A stretch of 64,000 nucleotides of DNA from contig JAFQGT010000019.1 in the NCBI GenBank assembly GCA_017415425.1, forward strand, positions 62,001 to 126,000, read 5' to 3'. The notes beneath the pieces are model-generated. The model saw only the letters and a program-made list of their open reading frames with translations, was not told the origin of the DNA and searched no databases. This stretch comes from Oscillospiraceae bacterium (lineage in GTDB: Bacteria; Bacillota; Clostridia; Oscillospirales; Oscillospiraceae). The position numbers were made by a program, and so were the translations under genes. This document shows, one piece after another, positions 5,345 through 64,000 of this stretch (the stretch's first letter is position 1; the number at the start of each line of letters is the position of its first letter).

Positions 5345-5530
5345 ATAATGAAAATGGGCATAGGGATTTGACTCCCTATGCCCGCACCCGCTTTGGCCGT
5401 ATGCATCCGATTATGACCTGCACCAATCGGCAGGTGGGTTGCCGCTCCCGACTTTAGCTGCTCCCAACGTCCGCCTGATGTCGAAGCATAGGCGGGAGGT
5501 CTGCAATCCAGCCGGGAAATCTAACATCCC
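5345..5530 (-). ncRNA. Candidate structured non-coding RNA with a pseudoknot, class not identified
   Basis: This 300-bp gap holds a compact RNA unit on the minus strand. Promoter-like TTGTGT and TATATT (5533-5561) precede it, and a strong hairpin, GGGCATAGGGA/TCCCTATGCCC (5356-5383), followed by ATTTTCATTATTTT ends it. Between them are a long imperfect hairpin (CCCG-GCUG-CUCC-CGCCU paired with AGGCG-GGAG-CAGC-CGGG, loop CUUCGA) and an H-type pseudoknot. In the pseudoknot ACCUGC pairs with GCAGGU while CCGAUU in the loop pairs with AAUCGG downstream. No open frame fits. The T-rich tail exists only on the minus strand. It could be a raiA-type or 6S-type RNA or something new; I cannot assign a family by eye. 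Confidence 0.6.
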
Positions 5531-5532
5531 TA

Positions 5533-5561
5533 AATATAAATGTGGGTCCAAAAGGACACAA
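5533..5561 (-). promoter_or_regulatory. Possible promoter of the non-coding RNA
   Basis: TTGTGT (5561-5556) and TATATT (5538-5533) on the minus strand with a 17-nt spacer would start RNA near 5527, at the GGGATG that begins the structured region. The -35 element is weak. Confidence 0.45.
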
Positions 5562-5585
5562 TTACGAACCAAGCAGGAATCTTTG

Positions 5586-47297: not shown

Positions 47298-47495
47298 TAA
47301 ATATCGCTGTGAACGGAAATAGTAACTACGCCAATCCTTCAGAGAGTCCGGGTCGTCGGCTGGAAGCCCGGATGGTGTCGGCAGAGTGAATGTGCGTCCG
47401 GGAGCGAATTTCTGTTTGAGTGAAAAATGAGAGTGGAACCGCGAGTTTATATGACCCGCCTCTTGTGCTGATGCATAAGAGGCGATTTTTGTTTA
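47298..47495 (+). promoter_or_regulatory. T-box riboswitch (tRNA-Cys sensing)
   Basis: Leader of cysS that binds uncharged tRNA and prevents termination. Stem I runs from about 47305 to 47405. The specifier appears to be TGC (47393-47395), the cysteine codon. The T-box core GAGTGGAACCGCG is at 47431-47443. The terminator GCCTCTT/AAGAGGC followed by GATTTTTG lies at 47458-47491. All parts are in the normal order. Confidence 0.93.
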
Positions 47496-53317: not shown

Positions 53318-53345
53318 AAATCGCACTGCAACAGCAGTGCGATTT
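53318..53345 (-). terminator. Terminator of the aromatic amino acid operon
   Basis: AAATCGCACTGC/GCAGTGCGATTT with a 4-nt loop, then TTTTTTCCG on the minus strand, 3 bp past the aroQ stop. Confidence 0.9.
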
Positions 53346-53347
53346 GC

Positions 53348-53782
53348 TTATTTTCCGTATTTCTCGTTCAAATATTCCATTGCCTGCCGATAGCCGTCAA
53401 TGCCTTGTCCCTTGATGCAGTGTTCGCAATACATTCCCACATAGGAGATCTGGCGAAAAGACTCCCGTGCGTCTACATCCGAGATGTGAACCTCCACTGC
53501 CGGGATACATACTGCCTTCAAGGCATCTAAAATTGCAACAGAGGTATGGGTATAAGCGGCAGGATTGATGACAATTCCGTCAATCTTTCCGTAAGCGGCC
53601 TGGATTTGATCTACAATGTCGCCTTCGTGATTGGATTGATAATGCTCGGCCTTTACACCAAGGGTATCAGCAGTTTGGGCGATAAGATCAAGCAGATTCT
53701 GAAATGTCTGATTGCCGTATATTTCCGGCTCTCTTAAGCCAAGCATATTGATGTTGGGGCCGTTGAGGATGAGAATTTTCAT
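53348..53782 (-). CDS. aroQ: Type II 3-dehydroquinate dehydratase
   Basis: Third step of the shikimate pathway. The 144-residue protein shows LILNGPNINMLGLREPEIYG with the catalytic Tyr, YQSNHEGDIVDQIQ, INPAAYTHTSVAILDAL and VEVHISDVDARESFR. Last gene of the operon, overlapping the aroE/aroK fusion by 4 bp. Confidence 0.96.
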   Translation of the reverse strand: MKILILNGPNINMLGLREPEIYGNQTFQNLLDLIAQTADTLGVKAEHYQSNHEGDIVDQIQAAYGKIDGIVINPAAYTHTSVAILDALKAVCIPAVEVHISDVDARESFRQISYVGMYCEHCIKGQGIDGYRQAMEYLNEKYGK

Positions 53783-55002
53783 AGAAGCTCCTCCAGATTA
53801 AAGATTGCAGACAGAGTTCTGGCCAGGGTGTTATCGTTATTTACAATGAAATCTGCAAATCTTTTGTAGTATGGTTTGCGCTGTGCATACATTAAGGCCA
53901 AATCCTGGGACTGTGACAGAGGTCGTCCCTCTGTGGGCAGCTGTTCCAGGCTGCGTTGAATCCAGATGATCCTGCCGTTCTGGTGGAGGATTGGATAGTT
54001 TTCCTCCCGTGTTACACAACCGCCTCCGGTTGCGATCACAAGGCCGGATTGGATACCTAGTTGTGAAAGGACCTCAGTCTCTCTTTTCCGAAATCCCGCT
54101 TCGCCTTCTGCGGCAAAGATTTCGGGAATTTCCATTCCTGCCATTATTTTAATTTCCTCATCTGCATCCCGGAATGTTCTTCCGGTAGCGTCCGCAAGCA
54201 TCCTGCCGATGGTGGATTTGCCGCAGCCTGGCATACCAATCAAAATCAGATTTTCCATCTGACAGAGAAGGTTATTGTAGATTTGGCCGATTACATTATC
54301 GGAAATGATATTGCCTGTAAACCATTCTGCACTTTCTTTTGCCTGGGCTATCAACATCCAAAGACCGTTTATAGCAACAAGGCCACGGCGCTCTGCATCC
54401 ATAAGCAGTTGCGTTCTTGCAGGGTTGTAAACCACGTCCAGCACGCCCTTCAGTTGGGGAAACAGTGACAGATCTACGGGGGAGACGCCGGTATTCGGGT
54501 ACATACCAACCGGGGTCGTATTGACAATAATGGAGGTATCCGGATGTAGATGCAGCGTTCCGTAGTGATTTTCTCCAGCGCGGGAGATAACGATCACATT
54601 CGCGCCCAGTTCTTTCAGAACAACCGCGGCCGTTGCAGAGGCTCCGCCGCTGCCAAGCACCAAAACCTTCTTTCCGTCCACCTGTAGTCCGGATCGGGTG
54701 ACCATAGACAGAAAACCGAAATAATCGGTATTGTGTCCAATCAGACGGCCGTCTTGCCGGCGCACAATCGTATTAACTGCTCCGATCTTTTTTGCCCGAT
54801 CGGTCAGGTCATCCAGATAGGGGATAACTGCTTTTTTATATGGGATTGTCACATTTATGCCGGTAAAATCATCTGCACACAGAAAGTCTGACAATTGGTC
54901 TGGTTCTTTCTCAAACAGGTGATATTCGTACTCTCCCAGTTGACTATGGATCTGGGGCGAGTAGCTGTGAGCGAGTTTCCGGCCGAGTAAGCCGCAAATC
55001 AT
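53779..55002 (-). CDS. Shikimate dehydrogenase-shikimate kinase fusion (AroE-AroK)
   Basis: Bifunctional enzyme for steps four and five of the shikimate pathway. Residues 1 to about 245 are AroE: GRKLAHSYSPQIHSQLG, GINVTIPYK, GAVNTIV, NTDYFGF, NADP loop VLGSGGASATA, NTTPVGMYPN. Residues about 252-407 are AroK: Walker A LIGMPGCGKSTIGRML, shikimate-binding DADEEI and FRKRETEV, then VIATGGGCV and the lid EGRPLS. A methionine at the junction (CQMENLILIG) marks the former aroK start. The fusion ensures equal amounts and possibly channelling. It is joined to pheA by a 1-bp overlap. Confidence 0.95.
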   Translation of the reverse strand: MICGLLGRKLAHSYSPQIHSQLGEYEYHLFEKEPDQLSDFLCADDFTGINVTIPYKKAVIPYLDDLTDRAKKIGAVNTIVRRQDGRLIGHNTDYFGFLSMVTRSGLQVDGKKVLVLGSGGASATAAVVLKELGANVIVISRAGENHYGTLHLHPDTSIIVNTTPVGMYPNTGVSPVDLSLFPQLKGVLDVVYNPARTQLLMDAERRGLVAINGLWMLIAQAKESAEWFTGNIISDNVIGQIYNNLLCQMENLILIGMPGCGKSTIGRMLADATGRTFRDADEEIKIMAGMEIPEIFAAEGEAGFRKRETEVLSQLGIQSGLVIATGGGCVTREENYPILHQNGRIIWIQRSLEQLPTEGRPLSQSQDLALMYAQRKPYYKRFADFIVNNDNTLARTLSAIFNLEELL

Positions 55003-56144
55003 TAGACCACCTCAGTATAGCTTCCCAAGTATTTAAAATCGTCACACAGATCGTCCAGCTCACACATTAACTGGACAAACTCGTCGGAGTATATGGAGGT
55101 TTCCAGATCAAAGTAGAACATAAATTCAAAGTCCCGATCGGGAATGGGTCTGGACTCCAATTTAATCACATTGATGCCCAGTACATACAGTCGGGCAAGG
55201 ACTTTATAAAGCGCGCCAGGCTTATGAGAGAGCACCATCATAATGCTGGTCTTGTCCGAACCGGGATAAATCTCAAGATTTTTACTAATGCAGATAAACC
55301 GCGTGCGGTTGTTACCCTTGTCTTGAATGGAATCGCTGAGACTTTTCAGACCATATAATTCCTCGCAGGTATGACTGGAAATGGCTGCAATATCCAATCG
55401 TCCGGATTTTGCTACCATACTGGCAGCAACTGCGGTGTTTTCTACAGGAATAACTTTAATACCGGGTAGTGTCTTCAAAAATTCACTGCACTGATTGATT
55501 GCTTGCTCGTGGGAATAAATCTCGGTGATCTGAGAGAGCTTTGCGCCGGGATTTGCAATCAAATTGTGATCGATCTTCATACGGAAGGACCGGACGATGG
55601 AGAAGTTATGGTGGATCATCAAATCATAGACTTTCTTCACCGAGCCGGCAGTTGAATTTTCAATCGGCAAGATTCCATACTGGCAAAGACCTTGCTCAAT
55701 GGCATTGAATACCCCGTCGAAATTCTTGAAATACATAATAAAAGGATTTCGAATCATCCGCTCACAAGCGATTTGAGAATAAGCACCCTCCACACCCTGG
55801 CAAGCAACCATAGGCGCCTGAGGAAAAAGATTATCGGTACTCTCAATAGATTTAGTAATATCCTTATACAACTGAGTTACCGCGCTGTTGCGCTTGCTTT
55901 GATAGCTGCGGCTCAATTCAAATAGCATCGAATACAAAACCCGTGTATAATTTGCCATATCTGGTCCAGCCTTTTTTGCCACTTCTTGTAGGATCTCCCG
56001 TTCCCGGGCAGGAACGTGAATGGGCATATTATGCGCTTTCTTGTAATCGGCAATTTGTGCCGATGCTTCCATTCGCTTTATAAACAACTTAACCAAAGCA
56101 TTATCGATATCATCAATTTGGTTTCGCAGATCCTTGAGTTCCAT
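55002..56144 (-). CDS. pheA: Bifunctional chorismate mutase/prephenate dehydratase (P-protein)
   Basis: Makes phenylpyruvate from chorismate. The 380-residue protein has the AroQ-class chorismate mutase helices at the N terminus (MELKDLRNQIDDIDNALVKLFIKRM), then prephenate dehydratase (GVEGAYSQIA, LPIENSTAGSV, NRTRFICI). The C-terminal ACT domain has GALYKVL and ESRPIPDRDFEFMFYFD, the ESRP site for phenylalanine feedback. AGGAGG is 6 nt before the ATG at 56144. It lies 10 bp after aroC. Confidence 0.95.
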   Translation of the reverse strand: MELKDLRNQIDDIDNALVKLFIKRMEASAQIADYKKAHNMPIHVPAREREILQEVAKKAGPDMANYTRVLYSMLFELSRSYQSKRNSAVTQLYKDITKSIESTDNLFPQAPMVACQGVEGAYSQIACERMIRNPFIMYFKNFDGVFNAIEQGLCQYGILPIENSTAGSVKKVYDLMIHHNFSIVRSFRMKIDHNLIANPGAKLSQITEIYSHEQAINQCSEFLKTLPGIKVIPVENTAVAASMVAKSGRLDIAAISSHTCEELYGLKSLSDSIQDKGNNRTRFICISKNLEIYPGSDKTSIMMVLSHKPGALYKVLARLYVLGINVIKLESRPIPDRDFEFMFYFDLETSIYSDEFVQLMCELDDLCDDFKYLGSYTEVV

Positions 56145-56154
56145 TATAAACCTC

Positions 56155-57237
56155 CTAGAAAATTCCGGCAGACAAACAAGCATCCATCACGGCAATTGCT
56201 GCGGCTGCTTCCACAACGGGAACCGCCCGGGGAACGATACACGGATCGTGACGACCTTGCACGGTAAGAATTGTATTTTCTTTTTCGTCAAGATTTATCG
56301 TGTTTTGTTCCATTGCGATTGAGGCAGTGGGTTTGATCGCAGTTTGGAACACAAGCGGCATACCTGTGGTGATTCCACCGAGAATACCACCTGCATTGTT
56401 GCTAAGTGTCTGAACCTTCCCATCTGTGATTGTATACGGATCATTGTTCTGGCTTCCACGAAGATAGCTTCCACTGAATCCGGAACCGAAGTCCAGACCT
56501 TTTACAGCCGGAATCCCATATACGATCTGCGCGATCCGGCTTTCCATACCGCCAAACATAGGATCACCGATTCCGGCAGGCAGACCAGTGATGATACACT
56601 CAATAATACCGCCAACACTGTCGCCGGCAGCTTTTGCTTTGGCGATTTCCTCCTGCATTCTCTGACCGGCGGCAGGATTGGTAACCGGGAAATCTGTACC
56701 GATGGAACAAAAGTCCGGATTGACCCAATCCAGATAGATGGGGTCATCTGCAACGCCTGCAATTACGCTGATATGGGCGCAGATCAGAATTCCCTTTTGC
56801 TCCAGCCATTGCTTGCAAAGACCGCCGGCAATGCACAAAGGAGCGGTGAGACGCCCGGAGAAATGTCCGCCGCCTGCTACATCCTGATAACCACCGTATT
56901 TGACCTGGGCAGGATAATCTGCGTGTCCCGGGCGGGGGCAAACCTTCAAATTGTCGTAATCGATGGAACGGGTATTGTTGTTATGGATCACTGCGGCAAT
57001 GGGAGCGCCGCAAGTGAAATCGTTAAGTATACCGGCAAGAAATTCGGGACGATCTTCTTCTTTACGTGTGGTGGAGTATGCATTTTGACCCGGAGCACGA
57101 CGGTTCAAAAACTGCTGTAGCTTTTCGGTATCCACCGATAATCCGGCTGGTATACCGTCCAGAGTCATACCGATAGCCGGCCCGTGAGATTGGCCAAAAA
57201 TAGAAAGTTTTAAGTTTTCACCGTATGTACTGCTCAT
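56155..57237 (-). CDS. aroC: Chorismate synthase
   Basis: Seventh shikimate step, EPSP to chorismate with reduced FMN. The 360-residue protein starts MSSTYGENLKLSIFGQSHGPAIG and contains RRAPGQNAYSTTRKEEDRPEFLAG, RPGHADYPA, GGGHFSGRLTAPLC and GGILGGITTGMPLVF, with the catalytic His residues in SHG and GRHDPC. GGGAGG is 5 nt before the ATG. Its start region overlaps aroA by 20 bp. Confidence 0.96.
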   Translation of the reverse strand: MSSTYGENLKLSIFGQSHGPAIGMTLDGIPAGLSVDTEKLQQFLNRRAPGQNAYSTTRKEEDRPEFLAGILNDFTCGAPIAAVIHNNNTRSIDYDNLKVCPRPGHADYPAQVKYGGYQDVAGGGHFSGRLTAPLCIAGGLCKQWLEQKGILICAHISVIAGVADDPIYLDWVNPDFCSIGTDFPVTNPAAGQRMQEEIAKAKAAGDSVGGIIECIITGLPAGIGDPMFGGMESRIAQIVYGIPAVKGLDFGSGFSGSYLRGSQNNDPYTITDGKVQTLSNNAGGILGGITTGMPLVFQTAIKPTASIAMEQNTINLDEKENTILTVQGRHDPCIVPRAVPVVEAAAAIAVMDACLSAGIF

Positions 57238-58414
57238 AATTACCTCCCAATTGTTTGTAGTCCTGCCAGAATTTAGGGTAGGATTTTGCTACACATTCTG
57301 CGCCCAGGATGGTTACCGGTCCATCTGCGATTGTAGCGCCGATTGCGGCAGCCATAGCAATGCGGTGATCGCCGGCGGCATCGATGGTGCAGCTGCGGAA
57401 CTTGCCGGGCGACATCTGTAGTGTGTTTTCTGTGGCTTCAATTTGAATTCCGAAAGCTTCCATCATACGGCTGACAGAATCCACCCGGTCCGATTCCTTC
57501 AGCCGCAAGCGGGAAATGTCCGTAATCAATGCGCCGCTCGTTGCACCGAAAAAAATAGCCAAAATCGGCACAAGGTCCGGAATGTCTCCTGCAGAGACTG
57601 TTTGAAATTCTTCAGATTGCTCAAGCATTGAAACAATTGCACGATCTCCCTGTACGGAGTCAGGATTCAGGTGTGTCACATTCACGCAGCTACCCAGTTT
57701 ATGAGCAACCAGAAAAAACGCTGCGTTGCTCCAGTCGCCCTCTACCCATACCAGACCGGGCGTGTGAAAGGGGCGGCATCCTGTGATGATATTATCATCA
57801 TTGTGGATGCCGAAGACAGACATAACCTGTTTCGTAATGTCGACGTATGGTTTGGATTGTAGCTTTCCTGTAATCGTAATATGGCTTTGTCCCGGAATCA
57901 GAGCGGTAGCCAGCAGCAGGCCGGTGATAAACTGACTGGATACAGAGCCGCTGACGGTATAATCGCCGGGCAGAAGCTGACCGTTGATACAAATGGTTGC
58001 TTCTGTGGGTCTTGAAAGCTTAGCGCCCATTCGCTCCAACTCTTCCCAAAGGGGAGACAGTGGGCGATAGGGAAGTCGGCCGGACATATATATGGTTGCG
58101 TTAACACCCAATGCACATACAACCGGAAGCAGAAAACGCAATGTGGATCCGCTTTCTCTGCAGTCAAGTACCGCCTGTTCCGGTAGATTTGTTACGGGAA
58201 TTATCCGATAACCGCTGTCAGTGCGGACAATCTCTGCGCCCAGAGCTTGCAGACATCCAACAGTTGCCTCAATGTCCTGGTTGGTGTCTGTACATTCCAG
58301 TTCAGTGGGACCATCGGAGAACGCAGCACAGATCAACATCCTATGAGCCACGGATTTTGATGAGACCGCACGGACTGTACCGCTTAGTTTTTTGGGATAT
58401 ATGGTAATATCCAT
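57218..58414 (-). CDS. aroA: 3-phosphoshikimate 1-carboxyvinyltransferase (EPSP synthase)
   Basis: Sixth shikimate step. The 398-residue protein has SSKSVAHRMLICAAF (phosphate-binding SKS-R), the DCRESGSTLRFLLPV motif, SSQFITGLLLA, GDWSNAAFF, DIPDLVPILA, RLKESDR and DHRIAMAAA. The ESGSTLRF form differs from the NAGTAMRP of enterobacterial AroA, which is common in Bacillota. I prefer the ATG at 58414; an ATG four codons upstream overlaps the aroB stop and is possible. Confidence 0.95.
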   Translation of the reverse strand: MDITIYPKKLSGTVRAVSSKSVAHRMLICAAFSDGPTELECTDTNQDIEATVGCLQALGAEIVRTDSGYRIIPVTNLPEQAVLDCRESGSTLRFLLPVVCALGVNATIYMSGRLPYRPLSPLWEELERMGAKLSRPTEATICINGQLLPGDYTVSGSVSSQFITGLLLATALIPGQSHITITGKLQSKPYVDITKQVMSVFGIHNDDNIITGCRPFHTPGLVWVEGDWSNAAFFLVAHKLGSCVNVTHLNPDSVQGDRAIVSMLEQSEEFQTVSAGDIPDLVPILAIFFGATSGALITDISRLRLKESDRVDSVSRMMEAFGIQIEATENTLQMSPGKFRSCTIDAAGDHRIAMAAAIGATIADGPVTILGAECVAKSYPKFWQDYKQLGGNYEQYIR

Positions 58415-58415
58415 A

Positions 58416-59471
58416 TCAAAGACCATCCTGAATGAAAGATTTCAGCATATCCACCGGTGTGGGAATAATTTCACAGTATCCGATTGCCCGGGGGACGATC
58501 AAATTCAAGCTGCTGCCTGCGCGTTTTTTGTCAGACAGCGCGCAGGTAAATAGTTGCTGGTCAGAATATTCCGTTACAGTGGGCAGCTTAAATTTATCCA
58601 ATACGGTCAACAGGTCAGAAAGGACAGCTCGTTCGCACAAATTTCTTGCGGCAGCCGCTTTTGTGACGATAGCCATACCTGTGGATACCGCCTGACCGTG
58701 AGAGATCATATAATTACTCAGTGTTTCGATGCTGTGACCAATGGTATGACCCAGATTTAATTTTTGACGCAAGCCGGTATCAAACTCGTCTGCACATACT
58801 GTGTCCCGTTTCAACTCAATGCATCTTATAATTACTTTTTCGCGATCAAAAGCAGAACCATTGTTCATCAGATGGTCAAATAATGCTGCATCATACAGCA
58901 TACCGTATTTGATCACCTCTGCACATCCGTCGGTAAAGATGTCGTGGGGAAGCGTTGTCAAAACCTCCGGGTCGCAGAGAACCAAATCGGGCTGGTAAAA
59001 AGCACCCACAAGGTTTTTTCCAACAGGCAGATCAATGGCGGTTTTTCCGCCAATAGAAGAATCCACCATTGCCAAAAGGGTGGTAGGGATTTGAACATAG
59101 GCAATTCCGCGAAGATAAGTTGCTGCGGAAAAACCGGCAATATCTCCAACCACACCGCCACCGAGAGCAACGATTGCATCCGAGCGTGTAATTTGGTTCT
59201 GGGCGAGAAAGTTCAGAATCTCCAAATAGTTTGTTGCGTTCTTACTGGTTTCTCCCGCCGGAAATACATAGTTTACTACTTGAAATCCTGTCAATTCCAA
59301 ACTATTTTGTACCTTGTCACCATAAAGAGGCCAGACGTGACTGTCGCTGATAATGGCGATCTTACAGGACGGTGTAAGTACTTGTTGCAGGTGGAGTCCG
59401 GCATCATTAAGGACGTTATTGCATACAATCACATAATATTGCTTGGATGCGGGGACGTTGATACGTGTCAT
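58416..59471 (-). CDS. aroB: 3-dehydroquinate synthase
   Basis: Second shikimate step, NAD- and metal-dependent. The 351-residue protein has the NAD motif ALGGGVVGDIAGFSAATYLRGI, the PTTLLAMVDSSIGGKTAIDLP loop, the metal-binding DGCAEVIKYG and NLGHTIGHSIE, and GHGQ-like SHGQAVSTGM. AGGAGG precedes the ATG by 10 nt. Its start overlaps the tyrA stop by 4 bp. Confidence 0.96.
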   Translation of the reverse strand: MTRINVPASKQYYVIVCNNVLNDAGLHLQQVLTPSCKIAIISDSHVWPLYGDKVQNSLELTGFQVVNYVFPAGETSKNATNYLEILNFLAQNQITRSDAIVALGGGVVGDIAGFSAATYLRGIAYVQIPTTLLAMVDSSIGGKTAIDLPVGKNLVGAFYQPDLVLCDPEVLTTLPHDIFTDGCAEVIKYGMLYDAALFDHLMNNGSAFDREKVIIRCIELKRDTVCADEFDTGLRQKLNLGHTIGHSIETLSNYMISHGQAVSTGMAIVTKAAAARNLCERAVLSDLLTVLDKFKLPTVTEYSDQQLFTCALSDKKRAGSSLNLIVPRAIGYCEIIPTPVDMLKSFIQDGL

Positions 59472-60298
59472 CCGTCTACTTCCTCCTTACAGCGCTTGCC
59501 TTCATCCAAAAGGGCAATCAGCGCATCGGTATCATTTGCCTGCAGGGCGTCCTGGTATGCTTCGAGACTTTTCATATATGTTTCCAGTTCGAAAAGTACA
59601 TTTTCTTTATTTGAAAGCATCAGTTCCGTCCACATAATTGGGTTTAGCCAGGCAACACGGGTGAGATCTTTGTAACTGCCTGCGGAAAAACCTTTGTGCT
59701 TCCGGGCAGTTGGGGATTTGATGAATGCATTGCTGAGCAAATGAGGCATTTGTGATGTAAATGCGATCATAGCATCGTGTTCGCCTGCGGTAGTAACAGA
59801 GAAGGAACCAAATTTACAGGGCGAAAGTGCATCCACAGTACGCTGTAGCAACTGCGGATCGTCAAATCTTGGTGGTACTAGCACCATTGGTGCACCCTGG
59901 AAAAGATTGGATCGGCTGTACTTAAATCCGGAGTGATGAGAACCTGCCATAGGGTGACCGCCGACGAAGGTGAAACCAAACTTCTCCGCAAGAGGGAAAC
60001 AGTGGCTGCAGATCTGTTCCTTGACACCGCAGCAATCGATAACCAGGGTGTTAGGAGCAATCTGCTCAGCGTGGTCTTCTAACCACGAAATGCAACCGCT
60101 TGCGTGAACGGATAAAAGAATACAATCACAGTTACCTACCGTTTCATCATTTAAGACGCCGTGGACTGCACCGGCAAGATGTGCAAACTCCAGAATATTC
60201 TGGTCCAGATCATAGGCAAGAACAGTATGTCCAGCTTTGGAATATGCCCGAGCCATAGATCCGCCGATCAAGCCAAGGCCCAGAATTCCCACATTCAT
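59468..60298 (-). CDS. tyrA: Prephenate dehydrogenase
   Basis: Oxidises prephenate to 4-hydroxyphenylpyruvate for tyrosine. The 276-residue protein has the N-terminal NAD fold NVGILGLGLIGGSMARAY, the catalytic His in GGHPMAGSHHSGF and the helical C-terminal dimer domain with FTSQMPHLLSNA. It is the short form without an ACT domain, so feedback may be weak or rely on the attenuator. GGGAGG is 7 nt before the ATG at 60298. It overlaps aroF by 4 bp. Confidence 0.93.
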   Translation of the reverse strand: MNVGILGLGLIGGSMARAYSKAGHTVLAYDLDQNILEFAHLAGAVHGVLNDETVGNCDCILLSVHASGCISWLEDHAEQIAPNTLVIDCCGVKEQICSHCFPLAEKFGFTFVGGHPMAGSHHSGFKYSRSNLFQGAPMVLVPPRFDDPQLLQRTVDALSPCKFGSFSVTTAGEHDAMIAFTSQMPHLLSNAFIKSPTARKHKGFSAGSYKDLTRVAWLNPIMWTELMLSNKENVLFELETYMKSLEAYQDALQANDTDALIALLDEGKRCKEEVDG

Positions 60299-61296
60299 CT
60301 GATCACCTCCCGGACTTGCTGCACTTGCTTGCACAGGGAATCGAATTGAACCGGTGTCAGAGACTGACCTCCGTCACACAGGGCGCAGGCGGGATTGTTG
60401 TGTACTTCCACCATAATTCCGTCTGCCCCGGCCGCAGTAGCAGCCAGAGCCATAGAAGGCACTAAGGATGCTCGGCCGGTAGCGTGACTGGGATCGATCA
60501 CCACGGGTAGGTGAGATAGTTCGTGCAGAACGGGAATCGCAGAAAGATCCAGTGTGTTCCTGGTGTAGGTCTCGTAGGTGCGAATGCCACGTTCGCAGAG
60601 AATAATATGTTCGTTGCCCTCGCTCATAATATATTCGGCGCTCATCAGCAGTTCTTGCAGTGTGTTGGCAAGACCCCGTTTCAAGAGAATGGGTTTATTG
60701 GTTTTACCCAGCTCCTGTAGCAGATCAAAATTCTGCATATTTCGGGCTCCGACTTGAATAACATCCACCTCTTGAAACAGATCCAGAGAACGAACATTCA
60801 TTATCTCCGTAATGATCGGCATACCAGTGACTTTTTTAGCCTCCAGCAGAAGTCGAATGCCTTCGTCCTTTAGACCTTGAAACGCGTAAGGGGATGTACG
60901 GGGTTTGAATGCGCCACCCCGAAGGATCTGCGCGCCTGAGGCTTTTACTGCAGTGGCCACTTCAATGATTTGCTCTTCGCTTTCAACGGAGCAAGGACCT
61001 GCAATCATAGCAAAATGACCGCCACCGATCTTTGTGTTTCCGCAGGAAATGATGCTGTCGGTGGGATGGAATTTCCGATTGGCCTGCTTAAAAGGTTCCG
61101 ATACACGGCGTACGCTTTCTACGATCTCAAGACTACTTAAGAGTTCTATATCCACTCTGCTGGTATCACCGATCAGTCCCAAAATTGTAAATTCTTTGCC
61201 TTCGGATACGTGGACATCCAGATTCATATGTTTCAACCAGGTTAACAGATGCGCGGTCTGCTGAGCGGTTGTACCGGGTTTCAAAATAGCAATCAT
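60295..61296 (-). CDS. aroF: 3-deoxy-7-phosphoheptulonate (DAHP) synthase, type I-beta with N-terminal regulatory domain
   Basis: Entry enzyme of the shikimate pathway. The 333-residue protein has an N-terminal ferredoxin-like/ACT-like domain of about 70 residues (MIAILKPGTTAQQTAHLLTW), which in Thermotoga-type enzymes mediates Tyr/Phe inhibition. The barrel follows with MIAGPCSVESEEQI, LRGGAFKPRTSPYAFQG, LKRGLANTLQE, ERGIRTYE and DPSHATG. AGGAG is 10 nt before the ATG. It is the first structural gene of the operon, after the attenuator. Confidence 0.96.
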   Translation of the reverse strand: MIAILKPGTTAQQTAHLLTWLKHMNLDVHVSEGKEFTILGLIGDTSRVDIELLSSLEIVESVRRVSEPFKQANRKFHPTDSIISCGNTKIGGGHFAMIAGPCSVESEEQIIEVATAVKASGAQILRGGAFKPRTSPYAFQGLKDEGIRLLLEAKKVTGMPIITEIMNVRSLDLFQEVDVIQVGARNMQNFDLLQELGKTNKPILLKRGLANTLQELLMSAEYIMSEGNEHIILCERGIRTYETYTRNTLDLSAIPVLHELSHLPVVIDPSHATGRASLVPSMALAATAAGADGIMVEVHNNPACALCDGGQSLTPVQFDSLCKQVQQVREVIR

Positions 61297-61311: not shown

Positions 61312-61348
61312 AAAGAATAAACACCGCACAGTTACGATCCTGTGCGGC
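61312..61348 (-). terminator. Attenuator terminator of the aromatic operon
   Basis: CCGCACAG/CTGTGCGG (arms 61340-61347 and 61324-61331) with an 8-nt loop, followed on the minus strand by TGTTTATTCTTT and lying just before the aroF ribosome site. Its first arm, read GCCGCACAG, is 8/9 complementary to UUGUGCUGC upstream (61387-61379), so an antiterminator can replace it. Confidence 0.75.
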
Positions 61349-61370
61349 GTCTGTAAATACAAGAACACGA

Positions 61371-61447
61371 TTGCAAATGCAGCACAAATCGCTATTACTT
61401 TTTACTGAAGAAAAAGTAATAGTAGGTAAAGTATGCAGCGTTTGCAA
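61371..61447 (-). promoter_or_regulatory. Alternative-pairing region of the aromatic attenuator
   Basis: Perfect 12-bp arms at 61411-61422 and 61392-61403 form a hairpin with a 7-nt loop; the first arm is the Tyr13-Phe16 codons, the second the last two Lys codons and the stop. Around it, UUGCAAACGCUGC (61447-61435) can pair 11/13 with GCUGCAUUUGCAA (61383-61371). That second segment overlaps the UUGUGCUGC antiterminator strand, so the two states are mutually exclusive. A local CGAUU/AAUCG stem (61368-61391) is a further competitor. Confidence 0.65.
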
Positions 61448-61457
61448 ATACGACCAT
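61395..61457 (-). CDS. Phe/Tyr-rich leader peptide of the aromatic amino acid operon
   Basis: A 20-codon frame reads MVVFANAAYFTYYYFFFSKK and stops at TAA. Nine of twenty residues are aromatic, with the run Tyr-Tyr-Tyr-Phe-Phe-Phe; there is no Trp. AGGAGG lies 5 nt before the ATG at 61457. Transcription from the promoter at 61488-61516 would begin about 24 nt upstream. It is followed by mutually exclusive hairpins and a terminator before aroF, the organisation of a ribosome-stalling attenuator responding to charged tRNA-Tyr and tRNA-Phe. This is far too biased to be chance. The peptide itself probably has no function beyond translation. Confidence 0.88.
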   Translation of the reverse strand: MVVFANAAYFTYYYFFFSKK

Positions 61458-61487
61458 AGCGGCCTCCTAAAACTAAAATCTAAGATA

Positions 61488-61516
61488 ACTATAGCACGGC
61501 AGAATTGGTTTTGCAA
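61488..61516 (-). promoter_or_regulatory. Promoter of the aromatic amino acid operon
   Basis: TTGCAA (61516-61511) and TATAGT (61493-61488) on the minus strand with a 17-nt spacer. The RNA would start near 61481. Confidence 0.75.
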
Positions 61517-61560: not shown

Positions 61561-64000
61561 TTATGAAATTACAGAGAATGTCTGGGTTGCAGCCAATGCA
61601 CCGTTAAAGTAAATGTGCATTGTGTATTCACCCGGTTCTGCAGGCATCGTAGGAACGTCCAGCTCGCAGTAATTCCGATACCACATAGATGTCCAGGTGT
61701 CTGTGCAGTGGCTGTAGTTTATTAACTTTCCGGAGTCATCAGTAATGACAAACAAGGTAGTAATTTTCTCATCAGAAGTGCCGTAAGCTCTGTTAAGATA
61801 TACAAGGAAGGATGCCTTTTCTCCCACCTGGAAGCTGGTTGTGTAGTCGCTGCTGCTCAGATTAAAGCGATCCCAGTTGCTCACATCAGGTGTTTTACAC
61901 ATATAAAAAGCCAGATTGTTTGAGGTAACGATGTAGTTTTGATAATTACAGGAGAAAGGCAGCGCGTCAGGTACAGAAAAGGTACCGGCAGAACCCAGCA
62001 ATTCTCTTCCCTCAGCATCTTCCAAAAGGTAATGATAGGTAGCGCCGGGGATAACAGGGGAAAGCCTGACTTCGTTTTCATAGCACAGCTCGGTCAGGGT
62101 ATTATCATCTCCGTCCAGCCAATAGCGGAATACCCAACCGGTATCGGGAACTGCGTAGCTGGCTTCCCACGACAGGAAAACCTCTGCAGAAGAAGGGGTA
62201 TACGCTGTAATATTATATGCGTTCACCGTATCCTTTTCAACGCTGGTATGTTGTCCGATGCTCATTCCCTGCGCAATAACTTCAATCAGATAAGTCTGAC
62301 TGTGATCGATGCCTTCGAAAATTGCCTCAGTATTGGGTGTAATGACGGTTTCGCTATAGCTGTCATTGTAGCAACGCACTGTCCACATTTCAACTTCAGC
62401 GTCGTCCTTTGCTGCCCAACTGACGGAAAGTTTTTCATCCATAAAACTGACAACTGCCAGATTCTGTGCAGTAATGACCTTACTGGCGGTGAAGTTAAGG
62501 GTATCCGTACCACTGATATACAGGGATTCTTTGGGCTCAATACGGAATGTATACTCCTTACCAATTGTTAAACCGGTAAGGGTTACGGTATGGGCGGGGA
62601 AGGTTACGGTTTGCTCTGCTTCGCCTTCGGCAGAATAGTGAACCATCCACTCATCGCAGCTCGGGCCGTCTATGGTAAAACTCAGAATAACACTGCCGTC
62701 GGTACTGCCAGTTGCAGCATTATATTGAACAATGCTGGTTTGAACCGGGGTGGAGTACGCGGTGGAGGTTTTACCGATCAGACGATGGAATCCGTTCGTT
62801 ACAACCTGAATGTTGTAGGCGGTATCCGGGATAAGACCGGTAAAGGAGGCCTGTCCATTGACCACAGGGGCGGGTATCTGGTTGCCGTAAGTATCGGAGC
62901 AGATCACAAGCAATGTAGATTCGTCAATATTCGTGTCAACCAGAACAGTGAGGGAATCCTCGTTGCCGTCCAGCACAATGGAATTAATCGGAATCAGGTA
63001 GTAGTGTTGGTAGTAGTAGATGCCGCAGGAAATGAGTGCCAACAGAATCAAAATCAGAATGCTGTTACGCACCCAGTTGGATTTCTTTTTCGTAGTGTGC
63101 CTGGTGGTAGACCGTCTTCTGGGAGGGGCGGATTCGACGATATCCTCAACTTCCTGGGGACTCTGCTCGGAATCCGCTGGAATCACCTCTGCTGCAGCTT
63201 CCTCTTGAAGAATATCCATCATCTCCGGAATGGAGATTTCTACATAATCTGGCACGACGACCGGCTCGGGTATCTCCATTGCAACCAATTCATCAGCCTG
63301 GGTCAACATTTCTGAAACTTCGTCAGAAATTTCAGCATAATCGATCAGAGCGGAATGGTATTCCGGATCTGTTTCATCGATAGAAGGATTTTCCAGGAAG
63401 AAAAAGTTACCGAGGCTGTCTTCTGCGTAAACAGGTTCTTCAGTGTCATCGGCAGAAACGTCATCCGAGTCCTCTACAACCGGGGAATTTTCAACGGTTT
63501 CGGCAACGGATTCGTCCCGTGAGGAAACATCCTCTTCGGAACTGACAATTGCTGCTTCTTCCTGGGAGGATTCGGTATCTGTGGTCTCGTCAGAATCGTC
63601 TTCCACAGGAACCGGTCCGATGGGCAAATCGCTGGCACCGTTGCGTTGCATATAGCTGATAATAGCCTGTCCCATTTGCATAGGATCCTGCCAGCGGTCT
63701 TCTGGGTTGGGGGCGCAGGCCTTGAGAATGATCTCACTCATCTCATAATCAGCGTACATAGGTGCGGAAAACGGTTCGTTCTCACCGGAATTCTGCTTAG
63801 GCAGTTCTCCGTTGTTATAGGCCTGATAAAGAACTAAGCCTGCGGCATAAATATCAATGGTAGTATTCAGCGTCGAAAAAGCGTCTGTTACCTCGGGGGC
63901 GGTATATGCACTCAGATACCGATCTGGCAACGAAGAATACTTTAAGGAGTTAAGACGTACAAAACCTAAATCACCGATTCGATATGTGTGGTCACCGGTT
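61561..64000 (-). CDS. Membrane Ser/Thr protein kinase-like protein with large beta-rich ectodomain, partial
   Basis: Only the last 812 residues are in the window; the frame is open to base 64000. The visible part starts in the kinase C-lobe: YRIGDLGFVR has DLG where DFG is usual, then YTAPEV (the APE motif), DIYAAGLVLYQAYNNGELP and NPEDRWQDPMQMGQAI. A 200-residue acidic Glu/Asp/Ser linker, a basic stretch RRRSTTRHTTKKK and one membrane helix (NSILILILLALISCGIYYY) follow. About 500 extracytoplasmic residues then form several fibronectin-III-like or Ig-like repeats (for example TVTLTGLTIGKEYTFRIEP and AIFEGIDHSQTYLIEVIA). The layout is that of PknB/PrkC kinases, but with unusual ectodomains instead of PASTA. 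HRD and the N-lobe are outside the window, so activity cannot be judged. Confidence 0.8.
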   Translation of the reverse strand, partial: TGDHTYRIGDLGFVRLNSLKYSSLPDRYLSAYTAPEVTDAFSTLNTTIDIYAAGLVLYQAYNNGELPKQNSGENEPFSAPMYADYEMSEIILKACAPNPEDRWQDPMQMGQAIISYMQRNGASDLPIGPVPVEDDSDETTDTESSQEEAAIVSSEEDVSSRDESVAETVENSPVVEDSDDVSADDTEEPVYAEDSLGNFFFLENPSIDETDPEYHSALIDYAEISDEVSEMLTQADELVAMEIPEPVVVPDYVEISIPEMMDILQEEAAAEVIPADSEQSPQEVEDIVESAPPRRRSTTRHTTKKKSNWVRNSILILILLALISCGIYYYQHYYLIPINSIVLDGNEDSLTVLVDTNIDESTLLVICSDTYGNQIPAPVVNGQASFTGLIPDTAYNIQVVTNGFHRLIGKTSTAYSTPVQTSIVQYNAATGSTDGSVILSFTIDGPSCDEWMVHYSAEGEAEQTVTFPAHTVTLTGLTIGKEYTFRIEPKESLYISGTDTLNFTASKVITAQNLAVVSFMDEKLSVSWAAKDDAEVEMWTVRCYNDSYSETVITPNTEAIFEGIDHSQTYLIEVIAQGMSIGQHTSVEKDTVNAYNITAYTPSSAEVFLSWEASYAVPDTGWVFRYWLDGDDNTLTELCYENEVRLSPVIPGATYHYLLEDAEGRELLGSAGTFSVPDALPFSCNYQNYIVTSNNLAFYMCKTPDVSNWDRFNLSSSDYTTSFQVGEKASFLVYLNRAYGTSDEKITTLFVITDDSGKLINYSHCTDTWTSMWYRNYCELDVPTMPAEPGEYTMHIYFNGALAATQTFSVIS

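Follow-up and report, generated by a model that had tools for sequence, protein, structure and literature searches.

A probable leader-peptide attenuator reading Phe and Tyr codons upstream of the aromatic operon of an Oscillospiraceae bacterium, and its distribution in Clostridia

Leader-peptide attenuation is best known from Proteobacteria and Actinobacteria, and T-boxes are the usual device in Bacillota. In classical attenuators, the decision between termination and read-through is held to be kinetic. The enterobacterial pheA leader (pheL) encodes a Phe-rich peptide, can form alternative hairpins and ends in a terminator placed before the structural gene; this attenuator responds to Phe only and controls one branch enzyme. 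Predicted attenuators have been published for Actinobacteria (PMC1262725). In Bacillota, the ilv-leu leader peptide of Staphylococcus aureus is described as a multi-amino-acid attenuator for branched-chain amino acids, whose predicted antiterminator pairs with the U tract and leaves the terminator stem intact (PMC5794164), and the bacilli genes hisZ and hisS* carry His leader peptides, a regular leader standing in place of a T-box (PMC2965389). Among the elements described in these sources, the nearest to the one presented here is uORFC-13-1, found upstream of Acholeplasma aroF, in which a short ORF with at least one Phe codon precedes an intrinsic terminator; its 24 sequences come only from Acholeplasma and from environmental samples, and the authors propose that it is a uORF control element (PMC8632094).

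Here we describe a Phe/Tyr-rich leader and a terminator located upstream of aroF in a window of 64,000 nucleotides, that is, the whole stretch of DNA that was analyzed from an Oscillospiraceae bacterium. Both had been noticed earlier by inspection of the letters alone (hereafter the original prediction), and that observation is confirmed. As in uORFC-13-1, a short ORF with Phe codons and an intrinsic terminator lie directly upstream of aroF; in contrast, the description of that element, in the part of the article that deals with it, gives no role for Tyr and no antiterminator, whereas here Phe and Tyr codons occur together, an antiterminator is identified, and the system is present in many families of another class, on a whole-pathway operon. 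In comparison with pheL, the trunk and both branches of the pathway would here respond to Phe and Tyr. The antiterminator pairs with the 5' arm of the terminator, unlike that described for S. aureus ilv-leu, and the leaders reported for hisZ and hisS*, which also belong to Bacillota, concern a single amino acid and hisS-related genes. The mechanism itself is known, being classical leader-peptide attenuation; its clade, its operon and the pairing of Phe with Tyr seem to be unreported in the literature searched, which was short of subscription journals and supplements and in which we found no account of Phe/Tyr leader peptides for Clostridia aro operons. The elements of the leader and the genes that follow it, all on the minus strand, are these:

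61488..61516, minus strand: promoter-like TTGCAA-N17-TATAGT, a consensus match only; the RNA start would be at about 61481
61463..61468, minus strand: Shine-Dalgarno sequence AGGAGG of the leader peptide
61395..61457, minus strand: leader peptide ORF MVVFANAAYFTYYYFFFSKK, 20 codons, TAA followed directly by TAG; its Phe/Tyr-richness is kept in relatives
61434..61448, minus strand: segment 1 (protector), leader codons 4-8, able to pair with segment 2
61411..61422, minus strand: 5' arm of the 12-bp hairpin, CTATTACTTTTT, made of Tyr/Phe codons
61392..61403, minus strand: 3' arm of the 12-bp hairpin, AAAAAGTAATAG, which includes the stop codon
61371..61387, minus strand: segment 2, the antiterminator strand, with its core TTGTGCTGC at 61387-61379
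61319..61352, minus strand: intrinsic terminator hairpin of 13 pairs, whose 5' arm includes GCCGCACAG (segment 3); the tail ATTCTTT comes next
60295..61296, minus strand: aroF, DAHP synthase with an N-terminal ferredoxin-like domain (Pfam)
59468..60334, minus strand: tyrA, prephenate dehydrogenase (Pfam; start codon as given by the ORF finder)
58416..59471, minus strand: aroB, 3-dehydroquinate synthase (Pfam)
57218..58426, minus strand: aroA, EPSP synthase (Pfam)
56155..57237, minus strand: aroC, chorismate synthase (Pfam)
55002..56183, minus strand: pheA, chorismate mutase and prephenate dehydratase (Pfam)
53779..55002, minus strand: fused aroE-aroK, shikimate dehydrogenase and shikimate kinase (Pfam)
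53348..53782, minus strand: aroQ, type II dehydroquinase, the last gene of the operon (Pfam)
53318..53345, minus strand: terminator-like hairpin of 12 pairs at the end of the operon

The 20-codon Phe/Tyr frame proposed in the original prediction is present on the minus strand (61457-61395), where AGGAGG and an ATG make it a translatable leader ORF of the kind expected in a classical attenuator, its translation being putative. A perfect 12-bp hairpin, 61422-61411 pairing with 61403-61392, has Tyr/Phe codons 12 to 16 as one of its arms, so the claim that the codon run pairs with the arm holding the stop codon stands. The core of segment 2 starts 7 nt past the leader TAA. Segment 2 has two mutually exclusive partners, each of which had been foreseen: leader codons 4-8 with the start of codon 9 (13 Watson-Crick pairs and 1 G-U in 16 positions, in the best ungapped register), and the terminator 5' arm, with which the core pairs at 8 of 9 positions. 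The terminator, said to lie right before aroF, was found there as a 13-pair stem (61352-61319) whose tail reaches into the aroF ribosome site; an intrinsic terminator is thus located between the leader and the first gene, as in classical attenuators. The leader of 194 nt folds with -60.7 kcal/mol (z = -4.7), a value equaled by 0 of 200 shuffles. The promoter-like match is weak evidence, because such matches are no more frequent across the region than in shuffles (15 found, 14.8 expected, not above chance); terminator-like sites numbered 13, with 9.5 expected. A large ORF with a fibronectin type III domain and, by eye, a kinase-like N-terminal sequence (61561-63930, minus strand) ends just upstream of the attenuator, and elsewhere in the window a 6S RNA (RF00013, 51.4 bits) was found at 5381-5582 on the minus strand.

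The operon consists of eight overlapping genes, aroF-tyrA-aroB-aroA-aroC-pheA-aroEK-aroQ, and it is as complete as had been claimed, given that Pfam names all seven shikimate steps together with prephenate dehydrogenase and chorismate mutase/prephenate dehydratase. The DAHP synthase search of the genome matched aroF alone, and among the 80 best-listed related loci described below, tyrA is the first recognized aromatic gene after aroF in 71. In this genome (97.4% complete) no match was obtained to PF00425 (the TrpE/PabB/MenF family) or to PF00218 (IGPS), both of which matched in 14 of 14 control genomes; therefore, chorismate seems to feed Phe and Tyr alone, and this apparent restriction agrees with the leader codons, which here correspond to the end products of the pathway as in a classical attenuator. 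As a separate observation, the genome keeps a complete Phe/Tyr pathway, yet shows no match to TrpE/PabB, IGPS, HisG or acetolactate synthase; KARI gave two weak matches only, and since hisG was unmatched, there was no hisG upstream region to compare.

Upstream regions of related DAHP synthases were compared in two samples. The first includes 80 named loci, which with the window make 81 regions; these loci are skewed to close relatives because they are the best of those listed, and the related class was taken as Clostridia from the locus titles. An ORF caller blind to Phe/Tyr content returned a short ORF in 64 of these 81 best-listed regions; the ORFs contain 31.7% Phe/Tyr, and 50 of them have runs of three or more, compared with 14 calls and no runs in the reverse complements of the same 81 regions, and 563 calls with 5 runs in 1620 trials on shuffles. 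At a looser threshold, a caller of Phe/Tyr-dense frames accepted 68 of the 81 listed regions, in comparison with 28 of 810 shuffles and 8 of 81 reverse complements; the leader of L012 was picked up by the blind caller only. Phe and Tyr are both present in 66 of 67 dense leader calls from the listed loci, a total that, like the 68, includes one false positive (L058, apparently the 3' end of a pheA lying upstream). The proposal that the leader would sense Phe and Tyr but not Trp is in agreement with this count and with the missing TrpE/PabB and IGPS matches.

The second sample was drawn evenly across the class and includes 147 genomes, 110 of which have a DAHP synthase match; 108 upstream regions were examined, corresponding to matches with a readable start (L120, whose match begins at residue 27, was dropped). 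A score of at least 10 was reached by 44 of the 108 regions, as against 2 of 540 shuffles and 2 of 108 reverse complements, and a score of at least 7 by 53 of 108, as against 19 of 540 and 10 of 108, respectively; the other 55 of the 108 class-sampled regions scored below 7 and have no clear leader. By hand count, the 44 high-scoring regions span 26 family labels, one of which depends on a doubtful ORF (L188). In such genomes, none of 20 regions upstream of trpE-type genes and none of 20 upstream of ilvB scored at least 10; only these two counts serve as a control, because the 20 aroF regions compared with them were chosen largely for their leaders. Judged from these comparisons, the support for Phe/Tyr leaders before aroF is far beyond chance, and predicted leaders rich in Phe/Tyr are widespread in the class upstream of DAHP synthase.

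Nine regions of this sample (L134, L141, L150, L153, L154, L163, L168, L169 and L172) show a second leader type with a recurring end, for example GYFYFSTGYFFCKK or SFYFSFGYF, in some cases with a Trp codon. The idea that Trp codons in leaders track the presence of trpC was not sustained, since 7 of 10 versus 13 of 34 is a trend only (Fisher p = 0.15, not significant). Among the listed loci, Phe/Tyr-rich ORFs also precede aroF on contigs labelled as other phyla (L032 and L057, Lentisphaerae; L039, Thermoguttaceae; L077, Kiritimatiellae), either by transfer or by wrong binning; among the 60 antiterminator duplexes computed for listed loci, that of L077 is the strongest (-27.4 kcal/mol).

A recurring ORF with a strong Shine-Dalgarno sequence could also be expected if it encoded a working small protein, followed by a plain terminator and with no coupling between the two; nonetheless, the peptide sequence is widely divergent except for its aromatic richness, and a complement of the terminator arm is retained near the leader end, which makes this explanation very improbable. 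Another explanation would be that a conserved U-rich hairpin, needed for a different RNA function, produces the aromatic codons as a mere side effect, given that the codon run of close relatives doubles as one of the hairpin arms. However, Phe or Tyr is encoded in 41 of 60 cases at the four positions that immediately precede the conserved hairpin in 15 close listed relatives, compared with 9.9% in background frames, and distant leaders with different sequences retain Phe/Tyr. The pre-hairpin counts argue that the aromatic codons are not a by-product of the hairpin, and we regard the side-effect explanation as scarcely credible; the comparison indicates that the codons are selected as codons. 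Relatives that kept the hairpins without the aromatic codons would have spoken against the proposed attenuator; the opposite was observed, since peptide and hairpin sequences drift and Phe/Tyr richness stays.

The pairings are conserved to different degrees. All 12 pairs of the 12-bp hairpin are intact in 15 of 15 aligned leaders from the listed loci, and it is the most conserved part of the leader. Terminator-like hairpins were called in 70 of the 81 regions (the window and the best 80 listed), some of them more than 100 nt from the gene, and hairpins scoring at least 38 in 45 of the 81, compared with none in one shuffle per region. In the 15-row alignment (A1), L015 is misaligned over its terminator; without this row, the antiterminator loses a single cell (L011) over eight of its nine positions, and the ninth is mismatched in all 14 rows (T-C in 13, T-T in L002). 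Covariation upstream of aroF had been suggested as a check, and some compensatory change was found in the pairing of segment 2 with the terminator, both sides being altered in L002 and L066. Segment 2 starts some 4-8 nt past the stop codon in the window and in most short listed leaders, and inside the ORF in many of the longer ones.

When the segment 2/terminator duplex was compared with shuffled segment-2 regions, the mean z was -1.1 for 60 listed leaders, with 21 below -1.5. In a swap test with 57 listed leaders, a leader's own segment 2 paired better with its terminator 5' arm (11 of 20000 permutations were as low), although on average 42% of swaps paired as well as the own segment; this test is uncontrolled for base composition, for which the duplex and fold tests with shuffled segment-2 regions do control. 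In 27 listed leaders with a common terminator sequence, the own segment 2 was no better than one another's, and the swap signal is carried by the divergent leaders. L044, L047, L054, L063, L076, L077 and L080 have divergent terminators with a matching segment 2, and 0 to 3 of 56 swaps were as good; a matching segment 2 in leaders whose terminators differ so much is the plainest sign of coevolution.

Sequence and computation show the leader ORF and the terminator, the two exclusive pairings with their conservation, and the operon. The reading that we favor, and hold to be very probably correct, is that the aroF leader is a transcription attenuator mediated by the ribosome, which senses charged tRNA-Phe and charged tRNA-Tyr jointly. 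If either of these tRNAs is scarce, the ribosome would stall on the aromatic codons (codons 9-17) and prevent segment 1 and the 12-bp hairpin from folding, leaving segment 2 free; segment 2 would then pair with the terminator 5' arm, and RNA polymerase would continue into aroF-aroQ. When both tRNAs are plentiful, the ribosome would reach the stop codon, its footprint would cover segment 2 and the terminator would form. We infer the dependence of stalling on tRNA charging, the choice during transcription and the size of the effect.

The 57 leaders from the listed loci were each folded as far as the loop of the terminator, with chosen codons covered by a ribosome footprint; eleven of the 68 Phe/Tyr-dense calls were left out, for having no terminator called, a terminator overlapping the leader or too distant, or, in L016, a wrong ORF chosen by the caller. 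In these masked folds, antiterminator pairing averaged 0.64 when the ribosome was on Phe/Tyr codons, 0.17 when it was at the stop codon and 0.35 without a ribosome, in line with the proposals that stalling at Tyr/Phe codons frees the middle segment to break the terminator and that finishing the peptide lets the terminator form. The difference between stall and stop exceeded 0.2 in the expected direction in 49 of the 57 listed leaders and in the reverse direction in 2; it was above that of the leader's own shuffles in 52, and it fell from 0.50 to 0.10 when the segment-2 region (from the aromatic run to the terminator) was shuffled. In 7 of the 57 (L005, L006, L015, L026, L030, L041 and L065), mid-stall antiterminator pairing was no better than in shuffles. 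Thus, apart from these 7 weak and 2 reversed cases, the computed antiterminator is exclusive with the terminator, exposed by the stall and masked at the stop, as in classical attenuators.

For the window, a wider count gave antiterminator values of 0.83 stalled, 0.40 at the stop and 0.81 without a ribosome. In a growing RNA, counting segment 2 alone, the antiterminator reached about 0.6 when codons 10-18 were in the A site and at most 0.05 with the ribosome at the stop; when the ribosome is at codons 15-18, this model permits segment 1 to pair across it, and the antiterminator is delayed at those positions. Since the completed 3' arm of the terminator wins in every state, antitermination must be kinetic. 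On these grounds the attenuation model of the original prediction is supported by the computation, except for the claim that an untranslated leader terminates: in the untranslated window RNA, segment 1 does hold segment 2 first, and fully, while the RNA is short, but the antiterminator later reaches 0.45-0.49 as the terminator 3' arm begins emerging, and termination is not clear.

The behavior of the untranslated RNA bears on a variant of the same attenuator, in which the 12-bp hairpin would serve mainly as a pause signal awaiting the ribosome, and the outcome would depend solely on where the ribosome stands with respect to segment 2; the protector pairing of segments 1 and 2 would be weak, and an untranslated leader would consequently read through in part. 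The values of 0.45-0.49 are consistent with this variant, as are the conservation of the hairpin, with all its pairs in every aligned row from the listed loci, and the ribosome-free antiterminator values, which range from 0.00 to 1.00 among the 57 listed leaders around their mean of 0.35. Against it, the protector pairing of the window comes first and is complete while the RNA is short. We give this variant serious consideration, at slightly under an even chance.

A T-box or another known riboswitch class could be thought to govern the operon, given that the genome has 13 T-box matches, 7 of them over the Rfam cut-off, including those before pheST and tyrS. However, the Rfam search of the window leader gave no family at gathering score and, at E up to 5, far sub-threshold matches only, with no T-box among them (the trpB motif RF04312 scored 18.4 bits, the cut-off being 59); no Rfam family was found on the leader of 15 further loci at gathering thresholds, and no sense-strand T-box at aroF upstream loci, either in 20 leader-bearing (E up to 0.1) or in 20 leaderless ones (E up to 0.001). 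Membership of the aroF leader in the T-box family (RF00230) was accordingly rejected for the window and for the related loci searched, and control of the operon by a known riboswitch is extremely unlikely.

The T-boxes of the genome precede pheST and tyrS (identified by Pfam) and six other synthetase genes (read from translations); a simple specifier rule gives UUC at the pheST T-box and UAC at that of tyrS, and the right codon is among the candidates at 8 of 8 synthetase T-boxes, with two candidates at tyrS and cysS. The cysS T-box lies in the window (47300-47466, plus strand, 63.2 bits, under the Rfam gathering score), and UGC (Cys) is one of its two specifier candidates. Five of the 13 matches (L090, L093, L095, L100/L101) are placed before AMP-ligase (acyl-CoA ligase) genes, two of them being near-identical copies; their specifiers suggest Ile and Val, Leu or Arg for L093, and Phe (UUC) in the case accompanied by an IorA-like ferredoxin oxidoreductase. 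The genome has no acetolactate synthase match, and these may be routes by which amino acids are made from branched and aromatic acids.

Of 20 genomes sampled for the trpE-type gene, 19 have a strong aroF leader and one (G118) has a leader score of 7; a sense-strand T-box precedes the trpE-type gene in 16 of the 20, with 10 of these matches equaling or exceeding the gathering score, and UGG is at the specifier position in 16 of 16; the four trpE-type genes without a T-box match all carry the genus label g20. No Trp-run leader was found before trpE in the 20 loci; ORFs with two Trp codons, none adjacent, occur in 6 of 20, a count with no shuffle control. In G021, a single divergent intergenic region contains both the aroF leader and the trpE T-box. 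The idea that operons with several products generally use leader peptides was not supported by 20 ilvB upstream regions, in which a T-box was found in 1 (ilvB is perhaps not the first gene there) and an Ile/Leu/Val-rich GTG ORF scoring 10 in 1, versus 2 of 400 shuffles.

Taken with the favored reading of the aroF leader as a two-tRNA attenuator, these observations suggest, tentatively and with slightly less than even confidence, that in much of the class aromatic control is divided by the number of signals: a two-amino-acid leader on the trunk operon and T-boxes on single-product genes, which possibly, at the same tentative level, would be trpE (UGG), pheST (UUC) and tyrS (UAC), with one tRNA each. 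If this is true, the leader would act as an OR gate, in which a stall on either codon means go, something beyond the reach of a T-box, and its codon content would track the end products that the organism still makes. Within a major class, many families have the predicted attenuator on a whole shikimate-Phe-Tyr operon, and the same genomes use T-boxes for synthetases and trpE, so that two RNA mechanisms would share one tRNA signal; together, these leaders make up a large natural set in which the evolution of a two-amino-acid attenuator may be studied.
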